In this document: positions 22,209 to 43,779 of the stretch, piece after piece | Layout: every line of letters starts with the position of its first letter | How positions within the stretch are numbered: the first letter of the stretch is position 1 | Assembly (NCBI RefSeq): GCF_029223525.1 | Contig: NZ_JARHTQ010000001.1 | Span: forward strand, 62,001 to 126,000 | Direction: 5' to 3' | DNA from: Streptantibioticus ferralitis | GTDB lineage: Bacteria; Actinomycetota; Actinomycetes; Streptomycetales; Streptomycetaceae | DNA length: 64,000 nucleotides | The notes under the pieces: generated by a model | Database searches by the model: none | What the model was told of the DNA's origin: nothing | The model's input: the letters and a program-made list of their open reading frames with translations, nothing else | Program-made: the position numbers and the translations under genes

Positions 22209-23825
22209 TCAGCAGTCCTGCGATTCGGCTCCGGCGCGGATCAACCCGTAGGTGTAGGCGTCGTCCAGCGCCTGCCAGGACGCCGCGATGACGTTCTCGC
22301 CGACACCCACGGTGGACCACTCCCCCCGACCGTCGCCGGTGGAGACCAGGACGCGGGTGGTGGACTCGGTGCCGTGCCGCCCCTCCAGGATGCGGACCTT
22401 GTAGTCGACCAGCTCCATGTGCGCCAGCGGCGGGTAGATGCGCTCAAGACCGGCGCGCAGCGCGCGGTCCAGGGCGTCCACCGGGCCGTTGCCCTCGCCG
22501 GTGGCGACGATCCGCTCGCCCTTCGCCCACAGCTTCACCGTCGCCTCGTTGACCTGGACGCCGTCCGGCCGCTGCTCGACGATGGCGCGCCAGGACTCGA
22601 CCCGGAAGAAGCGGGTGGCCTCGCCGCGCACCTCGTCGCGCAGCAGCAGTTCGAAGGAGGCGTCGGCCGCCTCATAGGTGTATCCGGCCAGTTCGCGCTC
22701 CTTGACCCGCTCGACGACGCGGCCCGCGAGTTCGCGGTCGCCGGTCAGGTCGTATCCGAGCTCCTTGCCCTTGAGCTCGATGGAGGCGCGCCCGGCCATG
22801 TCGGAGACGAGCATCCGCATGGTGTTGCCGACCAGCTCGGGGTCGATGTGCTGGTACAGGTCCGGGTCGACCTTGATGGCGGAGGCATGCAGTCCGGCCT
22901 TGTGCGCGAAGGCCGACACGCCCACGTACGGCTGATGGGTGGCAGGTGTGAGGTTGACGACCTCGGCGATGGCGTGCGAGATCCGGGTCATCTCGGCGAG
23001 CGTGCCCTCGGGCAGCACCCGCTTGCCGTACTTCAGCTCCAGCGCCGCCACGACCGGGAAGAGGTTGGAGTTCCCCACCCGCTCCCCGTAGCCGTTGGCG
23101 GTGCACTGGACGTGCGTGGCGCCCGCGTCGACCGCGGCGAGGGTGTTGGCGACCGCGCAGCCGGTGTCGTCCTGGGCGTGGATGCCCAGCCGGGCGCCGG
23201 TGTCGGCGAGCACCGTGCGCACCACGGCTGCGACCTGGGCGGGCAGCATGCCGCCGTTGGTGTCGCACAACACGACGACATCGGCCCCGGCCTCGTGCGC
23301 GGTCCGCACCACGGACTTGGCGTACTCCGGGTTGGCCCGGTAGCCGTCGAAGAAGTGCTCGCAGTCCACGAAGACCCGGCGCCCTTGCGAGCGCAGGTAC
23401 TCGACGGTGTCCCGCACCATCGCGAGGTTCTCCTCCAGCGTGGTGCGCAGCGCCAGCTCGACGTGCCGGTCGTGCGACTTGGCCACCAGGGTGATCACCG
23501 GCGCGCCGGACTCCAGCAGCGCGGCGACCTGCGGGTCCTCGTCGGCCCGCACGCCGGCCTTACGGGTGGCGCCGAAAGCCACCAGCTGTGCGTGCCGGAA
23601 GCCGATCTCCTTGCGCGCCCGCTCGAAGAACTCGGTGTCCCGCGGATTGGCCCCCGGCCAGCCGCCCTCGATGAACCCCACCCCGAACTCGTCCAGGTGC
23701 CGGGCGATGGCCAGCTTGTCGGCGACGGACAGGTTGATGCCCTCACGCTGCGCGCCGTCGCGCAGCGTGGTGTCGAAGACATGGAAGCTGTCGTCGGGCA
23801 GCGTGGGCTCGTTTTCTGCCGTCAT
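22209..23825 (-). CDS. cimA: Citramalate synthase
   Basis: 538 residues of the 2-isopropylmalate synthase family, of the CimA type (FDTTLRDGAQREGINLSVADK near residue 17 in two parts, then GFIEGGWPGANPRD and HAQDDTGCAVANTLAAV). It condenses pyruvate with acetyl-CoA to citramalate, an alternative entry to isoleucine. The C-terminal half is the LeuA-type regulatory dimerisation domain. The ATG at 23825 has AGGAG eight bases upstream. The frame is open back to 24077, but that part lies in the presumed leader. A candidate Ile-codon leader and terminator lie upstream. Confidence 0.93.
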   Translation of the reverse strand: MTAENEPTLPDDSFHVFDTTLRDGAQREGINLSVADKLAIARHLDEFGVGFIEGGWPGANPRDTEFFERARKEIGFRHAQLVAFGATRKAGVRADEDPQVAALLESGAPVITLVAKSHDRHVELALRTTLEENLAMVRDTVEYLRSQGRRVFVDCEHFFDGYRANPEYAKSVVRTAHEAGADVVVLCDTNGGMLPAQVAAVVRTVLADTGARLGIHAQDDTGCAVANTLAAVDAGATHVQCTANGYGERVGNSNLFPVVAALELKYGKRVLPEGTLAEMTRISHAIAEVVNLTPATHQPYVGVSAFAHKAGLHASAIKVDPDLYQHIDPELVGNTMRMLVSDMAGRASIELKGKELGYDLTGDRELAGRVVERVKERELAGYTYEAADASFELLLRDEVRGEATRFFRVESWRAIVEQRPDGVQVNEATVKLWAKGERIVATGEGNGPVDALDRALRAGLERIYPPLAHMELVDYKVRILEGRHGTESTTRVLVSTGDGRGEWSTVGVGENVIAASWQALDDAYTYGLIRAGAESQDC

Positions 23826-23930
23826 CTGGTGGACTCCTGTCGAGTGAGCGGGTTTACGGATCAACCAACTCCACTTGCCCCCAATGATCCCTCGCGCCTC
23901 GCTGCCTGGTGGTGGGTGGCCCAGGAAACG

Positions 23931-23957
23931 AAAAAACCTCTCGCGGATGCGAGAGGT
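23931..23957 (-). terminator. Intrinsic terminator in the cimA leader (candidate attenuator)
   Basis: On the minus strand ACCTCTCGC-ATCC-GCGAGAGGT runs straight into a T tract. It lies about 105 bases before the cimA start and about 80 bases after the short Ile-rich leader frame, the usual place for an attenuator. A plainer reading is the end of the gntR transcript, whose stop is about 150 bases upstream. Confidence 0.8.
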
Positions 23958-24034
23958 CTGCGCGCGGGTCTGGGACACGGTGATCGCCATCGCGCTCAGG
24001 TCTGCACGACGACGGCCACTGCGGACCGGCGCGC

Positions 24035-24049
24035 CTAGCCAATAATCAT
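24035..24049 (-). CDS. Candidate cimA leader peptide (M-I-I-G)
   Basis: ATG ATT ATT GGC TAG on the minus strand. It has two consecutive isoleucine codons of the rare ATT type, directly upstream of an intrinsic terminator and the isoleucine-pathway gene cimA. In the same frame a GTG at 24061 would give MSFAMIIG. No Shine-Dalgarno is visible, so translation would have to be leaderless or weak. The arrangement parallels the ilvB leader at 43661-43702. It is an inference, supported by position and codon choice, not by recalled homologues. Confidence 0.5.
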   Translation of the reverse strand: MIIG

Positions 24050-24104
24050 GGCGAAGGACACGGGGGCAGTTTGGCACAGGCGCGCTTCCGCGCGGATGGG
24101 CGTC

Positions 24105-24872
24105 TCAGGATGCGGGCATTTCGGCCGACGTGGCGCCCGACCCGCTCAGCCGATACTCCAGCACGTAGGACCCGGCGTCCAACAACATCTGCGTAACCTC
24201 GACGGGCCGCCGCCCGGCGGTGAACGCCGTGCGGCAGATCTCCACTACGGGCACCCCGGTAGCGAGCCGCAGGTCTTGGCGCTCGTCGTCACTCGGCATC
24301 CTGGCGCGCAACTCCTCCACGAAGTCGACCGGCTCAGCGCCCAGTTCCGCCAGCCTGGCGTACGTGCCGCCCGGCCCGGTGTCGCGCTGCGCGACGGCGG
24401 ACGACCGCACGAGATCGGCCGGGAGGAACGACGTGGCCAACTGCACCGGCCGTTCCTCGACCACGAACCGGCGACGACGGACAATCACCGGCGCTCCCGC
24501 GTCAAGCCCGAGCAGTCGCGCCACCTGTCGGGGCGCCTCGGCCTCGTACACCTCGACATCGGTCACAAGAGGGCGCTGCTCGACATCCGCGGACCAGATC
24601 GATTTGCCGCCCGACCAACGCGACTTGTCCAGGCGGTCGTTCGCGACCCGCCGGATCGGGCGAAACTCCCGCACATAGGTGCCCGAGCCAGGACGGGCCA
24701 CCGCCAGTCCCTCGCCCACCAGGAGTTTCAGCGCTTGGTTCGCTGTCATCTTGGCCACGCCGTACTGCTTCACCAGCGTGGGCTCACCGGGCAACCGATC
24801 CCCGGGCGCCAGTTCACCGGAATAGATCCGCGCCCTGATGTCATCGGCGATCTGCCGGGACGTCTCGGGCAT
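24105..24872 (-). CDS. GntR/HutC-family transcriptional regulator
   Basis: 255 residues. An N-terminal winged helix (RQIADDIRARIYSGELAPGDRLPG, then LVKQYGVAKMTANQALKLL) is followed by a C-terminal UTRA effector domain. The ATG at 24872 has GGGGAGAG upstream. A CTCCCTAGGG half-palindrome 19 bases before the start and two further copies at 24981 and 25018 suggest autoregulation and control of the divergent transcript. Such GntR genes with small partner genes are common in streptomycete accessory regions and integrative elements. No integrase or transfer gene is seen nearby. Confidence 0.9.
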   Translation of the reverse strand: MPETSRQIADDIRARIYSGELAPGDRLPGEPTLVKQYGVAKMTANQALKLLVGEGLAVARPGSGTYVREFRPIRRVANDRLDKSRWSGGKSIWSADVEQRPLVTDVEVYEAEAPRQVARLLGLDAGAPVIVRRRRFVVEERPVQLATSFLPADLVRSSAVAQRDTGPGGTYARLAELGAEPVDFVEELRARMPSDDERQDLRLATGVPVVEICRTAFTAGRRPVEVTQMLLDAGSYVLEYRLSGSGATSAEMPAS

Positions 24873-43516: not shown

Positions 43517-43584
43517 CTGCGTTTCTCTTCTCGAAGAGGCCGCCCCGGCTCAATGGTATGAGGGGCGGTAGGTGCCAGTGCAAC

Positions 43585-43618
43585 AAAAAACCCCTCGTGC
43601 CGTTAGGCAAGCGAGGGG
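43585..43618 (-). terminator. Attenuator terminator of the ilvB leader
   Basis: On the minus strand CCCCTCGC-TTGCC-TAAC-GGCA-CGAGGGG runs into TTTTTTG. It sits between the leader peptide stop and ilvB. When the ribosome does not stall at the Ile/Leu/Val codons this hairpin should end transcription. Confidence 0.9.
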
Positions 43619-43660
43619 AGCGCGCCGGTGCTGTCATCGGGGCGGGTGAGTGGCCCCGGA

Positions 43661-43702
43661 TCAGCCGACGCGCTTTCCAAGTACGAGAATTCGGGTGCGC
43701 AT
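43661..43702 (-). CDS. ilvB leader peptide MRTRILVLGKRVG
   Basis: A 13-residue frame (ATG 43702, TGA ending 43661) behind GGAGGAGGGTCGGAG. It contains Ile-Leu-Val-Leu in a row. I recall the same peptide reported for the actinobacterial ilvB attenuator. Stalling on these codons under branched-chain amino-acid limitation should favour an antiterminator structure. Confidence 0.92.
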   Translation of the reverse strand: MRTRILVLGKRVG

Positions 43703-43779
43703 GGCTCCGACCCTCCTCCCCCTTGGACATCAGTGTCAAGTGGGTGGGACGGTCGTCTCATTATGTGAGCGTGGTGCTC

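Follow-up and report, generated by a model that had tools for sequence, protein, structure and literature searches.

In the 64,000-nt stretch of Streptantibioticus ferralitis DNA analysed here (hereafter the window), a tiny frame with two successive isoleucine codons and a terminator-like hairpin lie between the end of a gntR gene and cimA, which raises the question of whether this leader couples cimA expression to isoleucine supply. An original prediction, made from the letters of the sequence, had read it as an isoleucine-responsive attenuator. We find it likely that the leader indeed controls cimA by ribosome-mediated transcription attenuation, with charged tRNA-Ile as the signal sensed, a reading for which conservation, codon bias, geometry, covariation and the swapping of codons between genes all argue, and from this sequence record we infer the response to isoleucine itself.

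All parts of the putative element lie on the minus strand. The upstream open reading frame (uORF; 24061-24035) reads GTG TCC TTC GCC ATG ATT ATT GGC TAG and encodes VSFAMIIG, the two ATT isoleucine codons (24046-24041) being exactly as originally described and, by codon counts, constituting the predicted stall site. Behind it lies P1 (24034-23960), a long hairpin predicted by folding and covariation, which contains a variable, covarying inner hairpin and whose predicted 5′ arm, GCGCGC.GGUCCGC, and 3′ arm, GACC.GCGCGC, span 24034-24021 and 23970-23960, respectively. The predicted intrinsic terminator hairpin (23959-23934) follows at a distance of 0 nt and is succeeded by a T tract. The downstream gene, presumably the regulated one, is cimA as had been supposed (22209-23825, ATG at 23825), its product scoring 630.9 bits against the citramalate synthase model TIGR00977 (cut-off 450). 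Both terminator and T tract stood up, as did their approximate placement 80 bases behind the frame (75 bases from stop codon to stem), but the stem is predicted to have 11 pairs, six of them G-C, rather than the 9 bp originally given. Terminator prediction yielded two such sites in the 22.5-25 kb interval, one per strand, compared with 0.8 ± 1.0 in shuffled sequences; the fold of the leader has a z-score of −5.8 relative to 200 shuffles, and ATTATTGG occurs once in the window, with 0.11 occurrences expected. Searching the whole window against Rfam 15 returned three tRNAs only and no leader match at the gathering threshold, and the leader alone gave sub-threshold scores of 14.5 bits (threshold 56) on the other strand and 13.4 bits (threshold 50) on this strand. 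The three tRNA genes are consecutive and map to 758-1083 on the minus strand.

It had been suggested that aligned cimA upstream regions of Streptomyces might share a short frame with isoleucine codons plus the terminator. In the best 80 of 586 relatives from a CimA search, nearly all Streptomyces by name and fetched with their flanks, this leader unit was present upstream of cimA at 80/80 of the streptomycete-type loci. This bears on the simpler alternative, also raised at the outset, that the hairpin ends the gntR transcript as an ordinary terminator; the uORF would then be a chance frame. While gntR does end at 24105, 43 bases upstream of the uORF and on the same minus strand, a GntR relative was encoded upstream in 0/80 relatives (tblastn E ≤ 1e-5, within the upstream stretch fetched), the longest open frames upstream in these 80 fall into 27 sequence clusters, and uORF, isoleucine codons, spacing and terminator remain with cimA over much of the class. 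We therefore grant a gntR terminator hardly any probability.

Within the window leader and its 80 relatives, the codon usage of the uORF is striking against that of the gene it precedes. The first isoleucine codon was ATT in 81/81 uORFs and the second position ATT in 60, ATC in 16, ATG in 4 and ACC in 1, whereas in the relatives' own cimA genes, 80 in all, 1482 of 1489 isoleucine codons are ATC and only 7 are ATT. We count against the attenuator reading that the second position thus encodes Met in four and Thr in one of the 81. The commonest form of the uORF, VLSFAMIIGSRRAGPQ followed by a stop codon, accounted for 34/81. Start codons were GTG in 80 cases and ATG in one; since the codon preceding the first isoleucine is not ATG in 13/81, the frame starts at the in-frame GTG, which the original prediction had offered as one option, and the other, a frame M-I-I-G beginning at that ATG, can be set aside. 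Downstream of the isoleucine codons, CGCGCCGGTCCGCAG was present in all 81 aligned leaders, and the reading frame through it varies by clade, giving IIGSRRAGPQ or IIGSSAPVRS.. (also ..SSAPVRSGH), with a stop codon immediately after IIG in the window and in its closest relative, L002. An invariant sequence read in different frames argues that it is kept as RNA and not as peptide.

The distribution of the leader was surveyed with R1, a covariance model of 139 positions, whose sole match at E below 0.1 in the home genome was the cimA leader. R1 matched 121/121 sampled genomes of the family (17/17 genera) and 174/394 sampled genomes of the class (70/138 genera), both being counts of matches as such, whatever the gene downstream; some genomes had a second match, before a gene other than cimA. 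CimA itself (TIGR00977, E ≤ 1e-100) was found in 310/394 of the class genomes. The 96 loci examined outside the family comprised 16 (L114-L129) and 13 (L201-L213) that had been chosen by R1 match and 67 (L134-L200) taken from the cimA list regardless of R1, with diverse genera favoured and genomes already fetched left out. Among these 67 loci, the unit lies upstream of cimA in 50, of which the script called 48 and inspection by eye added L145 and L181. By script criteria it was absent from 17, which belong to f18 (8), f25 (7), f39 (1) and f35 (1), the family labels here and below (f11, f17, f18, f25, f35, f39) being the tool's own; ten of these negatives were checked as sequence, and the other seven were called by the script, which had missed two positives. 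In the f25 and f39 negatives viewed, cimA seems to lie directly behind the end of an ilvE-like gene. Three f18 loci with cimA and no leader (L135, L184, L194) share a different upstream block, in which a TTA triplet occurs together with an arm GCGCG(T/C)TCCGG.

Outside the family, the enrichment of the rare codon recurs: the isoleucine clusters of the 72 script-positive leaders contain 84 ATT and 73 ATC codons, compared with 1 ATT, 239 ATC and 3 ATA in the cimA coding frames of L114-L129. The final cluster comprises two isoleucine codons in 39 of these leaders, three in 23 and a single one in 10, the last again counted against the attenuator reading. Five loci lacked the cimA motif used by the script, namely L210, where the gene is cimA with a variant motif, and L209, L213, L203 and L211.

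We next consider the two hairpins. RNAalifold returned P1 plus terminator as the consensus structure of the family leaders, in which the inner hairpin covaries and the base of P1, with both of its arms, is almost invariant. In leaders from beyond the family, changes in one arm are compensated in the other, GCGCGCCGG being replaced by GCGCGUCGG, GCGCAUCGG or GCGAACUG with matching partners. In an alignment of 76 sequences, standard pairs filled 97.5% of the pair cells, and 176 cells carried double changes as compared with 34.8 ± 7.4 after shuffling, although rows that were selected and aligned with R1 are biased toward the structure; structures slid along the same alignment reached at most 63.3% pairing and 27 double-change cells. 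These rows derive from 79 sources aligned to R1, minus L179 and L188 (no match) and L168 (partial match). The spacing of the two hairpins is equally constrained: the linker measured 0 nt in 80/81 and 1 nt in one of the family leaders, and 0 nt in 60/72 and 1 nt in 11 of the non-family leaders, the remaining value of 9 (L156) being an artefact of a later isoleucine codon having been picked, which makes 0-1 nt in 152/153 overall. As a weak control, we took loosely defined terminator-like sites (81 sites, 40 of them without a GCGC-type arm, minus the seven leaders L003, L015, L025, L073, L129, L131 and L132); a hairpin of 6 bp or more lay 0-1 nt away in 12/33 cases, counted by eye, and a strict definition left just three sites, two of them flush. 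Chance thus produces flush arrangements with some frequency in GC-rich DNA, and flushness is no proof by itself.

P1 and the terminator coexist in minimum-energy folds; they share no bases and merely abut, and a pair extending P1 into the terminator is missing from 150/152 leaders, the first junction position pairing in 2/152. The antiterminator originally put forward, in which ACCTGAGCGCG would pair with CGCGAGAGGT, falls into the middle hairpin, which is variable, and even the closest relative, L002, does not conserve it; it was dropped, as the terminator has a probability near 1 in ribosome-free and stalled models alike.

Upstream of the uORF, a −10-like hexamer, CAAACT (24073-24068, minus strand), lies 6 nt before the start codon. 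A hexamer nAnnnT ends exactly 6 nt upstream of the start codon in 77/81 family leaders, which suggests a leaderless transcript. In 61/72 leaders outside the family, 5-9 nt separate the end of a [TC]AnnnT hexamer from an in-frame start, whereas only 27/758 other ATG or GTG triplets have a hexamer so placed. Judged from these motifs, the cimA leader transcript is probably leaderless, with its 5′ end at the uORF's GTG or right beside it.

In enterobacterial trp, his and leu attenuators, whether transcription terminates or reads through depends on where the ribosome stands on the control codons. The geometry of the cimA leader would suit such a decision. The first isoleucine codon is located 11-15 nt upstream of P1 in 148/152 leaders (81/81 in the family, 67/71 elsewhere), and in 152/152 P1 has begun at the latest 5 nt after the stop codon's first base. 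We modelled the ribosome as a 16-nt mask that begins where the P-site codon does, with the stalled codon in the A site. Over the 81 family leaders, the folding model gave P1 a mean probability of 0.998 with the ribosome stalled at the first isoleucine codon, 0.745 at the second and 0.000 on the stop codon. The terminator, in the same free-RNA model, had a mean probability of 0.999 without a ribosome and in either stalled state, and of 0.953 (minimum 0.153) with the ribosome on the stop codon; the sole modelled loss of the terminator falls in the state expected to terminate. In these models the ribosome gates P1, yet a free-RNA equilibrium by itself predicts no antitermination upon stalling. 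Of the features of a classical attenuator, the leader thus has the frame with end-product codons (isoleucine, enriched in rare ATT) and an intrinsic terminator, predicted and covarying, between uORF and first gene, and a base-pairing antiterminator exclusive of the terminator did not emerge from equilibrium models of the free RNA. We judge it to be an attenuator by its parts and its logic that departs from the classical scheme in one feature, base-pair exclusion.

From these observations we infer a leaderless start, stalling, and an opposition of P1 to termination, which may combine as follows. Transcription would begin at or beside the GTG, and a ribosome would translate the short frame. With ample charged tRNA-Ile, it would reach the stop codon and its footprint would cover the 5′ arm of P1; with P1 blocked in this way, the terminator would halt transcription before cimA. 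When charged tRNA-Ile is short, the ribosome would stall at the first isoleucine codon (in streptomycetes always the rare ATT), a spacing that would leave P1 free to fold before the terminator is complete, with read-through into cimA as the outcome. The least certain part is how P1 might act. Since it shares no bases with the terminator, we propose as a hypothesis drawn from the geometry that P1, abutting the terminator base, is a steric obstacle in the exit channel of the polymerase and so prevents the final pairs of the terminator from forming there.

Two other accounts of P1 keep the codons and the terminator and replace this step. In the first, the same attenuator would antiterminate when its P1 loop base-pairs, pseudoknot-like, with the terminator's right shoulder. 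Such pairing has a published precedent in the Corynebacterium ilvB-II motif, for which an antiterminator formed by P1 loop and P2 shoulder has been proposed (PMC10272879). In our leaders, duplexes of loop and right arm averaged −6.4 kcal/mol, whereas shuffled loops gave −5.6 kcal/mol (n = 71, Wilcoxon p = 0.003). At some f17 loci the pairing was very strong (GGACCCC/GGGGUCU, −14.0). However, loops swapped between species pair equally well (mean −6.1, p = 0.50), several leaders have P1 loops of just 3-5 nt that could hardly pair with the terminator, and the weak signal may merely reflect C-rich loops and G-rich arms, so that we regard loop pairing as rather unlikely. As a separate observation, a GGAC in the P1 loop and a GUCC in the terminator loop recur jointly at f17 loci (L121, L122, L125, L136 and others), where, by sequence, the two loops could kiss.

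In the second account P1 would do no more than make RNA polymerase pause and so keep it in step with the ribosome, the switch being made by another structure or factor, such as a P1-bound protein or Rho. The compatibility of P1 with the terminator in the folding models would fit, as P1 then need not be an antiterminator, and the near-invariant arms inside the family could reflect binding of a factor. Yet the compensated variation of the arms outside the family points to a structure and not to a sequence-specific binding site, and the flush placement of P1 in nearly all leaders is unneeded for pausing; we consider this account, too, improbable.

A second model, R2, was built from 94 positions of 76 leaders, 74 of cimA and two of ilvB (L209, L213), and its E-values are rough. 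In the home genome it recovered the cimA leader (E = 7.6e-16) and two others. One is the leader of ilvB in the window (43580-43702, minus strand), with uORF MRTRILVLGKRVG and stop, P1 and a flush terminator, which the original prediction had said to follow the same logic and which this mostly-cimA model finds, weakly, at a rough E = 0.003. The other (L083, C15:124875-124963; rough E = 8e-4) has the uORF MRAVRLLLSQPR, P1 and a terminator. R2 matched 270/394 sampled genomes of the class and 72/296 genomes drawn from the phylum. Twenty of the phylum-draw matches were fetched, one of which (L231) belongs to the class. Fifteen of the 20 precede ilvB-like genes and carry leucine, valine or isoleucine codons, two (L217, L233) have leucine codons before leuA (TIGR00973, 715.7 and 714.5 bits), and L230 has four isoleucine codons before cimA outside the class (TIGR00977, 700.7 bits). 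For L225 and L235 none of the reference proteins matched, and L235, with an upstream hairpin of 3 bp, is probably a chance match. Linkers in the 20 measured 0 nt in 10, 1 nt in 7, 2 nt in 2 and 3 nt in 1. Likewise, in f11 genomes the R1 matches precede ilvB, with Val-Val (L209) or Leu-Val-Ile (L213) codons, and cimA was not found in these two genomes. Codon identity varies with the gene behind a constant scaffold, which is strong evidence that sensing operates through the codons.

The swap also weighs on the notion that the sensor is the uORF peptide, acting by nascent-chain arrest, and not the decoding of codons. An LSFA N-terminus is common among streptomycete uORFs, as a peptide sensor might require. 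Outside the family, however, the peptides have little in common beyond the isoleucine cluster, which becomes leucine or valine before leuA and ilvB, and the choice of rare ATT would not matter to a peptide sensor; arrest by the peptide is thus very unlikely. Codon decoding remains our reading, and a broader form of it is possible, if tentative: actinobacteria might share one modular attenuator scaffold, with codons matched to the gene, abutting hairpins without shared bases, and steric antitermination. A leaderless uORF would then present isoleucine codons for cimA, leucine codons for leuA or leuS, and leucine, valine or isoleucine codons for ilvB, and the ribosome-gated hairpin would antiterminate by occupying the terminator base at the exit channel rather than by base-pair competition.

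Compared with the enterobacterial attenuators mentioned above, with their overlapping 2:3 and 3:4 hairpins, the cimA leader is predicted to have two abutting, non-overlapping ones. Among its closest published counterparts are those of Corynebacterium, where ilvB-II and ilvBNC leaders are described as having a 5′-end uORF with branched-chain codons and a hairpin beside a U-tract terminator (PMC10272879; PMC11857589), as the cimA leaders do. The architecture of ilvB-II is alike, the cimA leader differing in the gene and in its isoleucine control codons; expression of ilvB-II is given as higher in minimal than in rich medium (PMC10272879). In ilvBNC, by contrast, antiterminator and terminator overlap at a GCC trinucleotide (PMC11857589); the three-base overlap of the C. 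glutamicum 'fast attenuator' was looked for in the cimA leaders and not found, the first junction position pairing in only those 2/152 cases.

Within Streptomyces, the relatives of R2 type are the ilvB leader IlvL, MRTRILVLGKRVG, and the leuS leader LeuL2, MRAVRLLLSEPR, as given in PMC8079986 and PMC1262725; the latter peptide resembles MRAVRLLLSQPR. They precede other genes and carry Ile/Leu/Val or Leu codons where the cimA leader has Ile. P1 is flush with the terminator in the window ilvB leader, as in the cimA leader, whereas the leuS-like leader has a 2-nt linker. The LEU element of leuA likewise has a leader peptide with codons for the pathway amino acid, and the gene behind it belongs to the enzyme superfamily of cimA; as portrayed in PMC1262725, it comprises a pseudoknot and a base stem pairing with the Shine-Dalgarno box, with no obvious terminator, in contrast to the clear terminator of cimA. 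On the functional side, uORF-based transcription attenuation has experimental support for M. tuberculosis ilvB1 (PMC13236596). For the sister ilvB leader of S. coelicolor, altering codons reportedly left regulation unchanged (cited in PMC1262725), a result that we count against the attenuator reading.

Leaders of ilvB and leu genes are known from actinobacteria; the original prediction named none for cimA, and we found none described in the open-access PMC papers searched. In the text available, cimA is not among the entries of the 2005 survey of actinobacterial leaders (PMC1262725) nor among the eight leader peptides of S. lividans (PMC8079986). The leader would thus add a widespread putative isoleucine sensor, absent from the open-access papers searched, to the citramalate route in bacteria, the main antibiotic producers among them. 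A mechanistic question arises as well, namely whether a terminator can be blocked by an abutting hairpin with which it shares no bases; if so, this might explain the reported non-classical behaviour of the S. coelicolor ilvB leader and would provide a simple codon-programmable control part.

A further element lies upstream of the promoter. In the alignment of the 81 leaders, TGAGACG (24101-24107, minus strand) has an invariant TGAGA in 81/81. TGAGACG is also found upstream of the ilvB promoter in the window (43745-43760, minus strand), there as the inverted repeat TGAGACGACCGTCCCA. Judging by sequence, the elements at ilvB and cimA may be an operator common to both genes, at which a branched-chain regulator such as NdgR would bind.

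Leaders with isoleucine codons also precede small genes, both in the family (L130-L133, taken as second R1 matches) and in another family (L203 and L211, with ACT-like genes). The proteins tested from L132, L133 and L211 gave a weak match to ACT_4, below the Pfam cut-off, and such small ACT-like genes are perhaps, from their leaders, a second isoleucine-controlled gene in some lineages. Repeats similar to the inverted repeat at ilvB precede the leaders in L130-L133.
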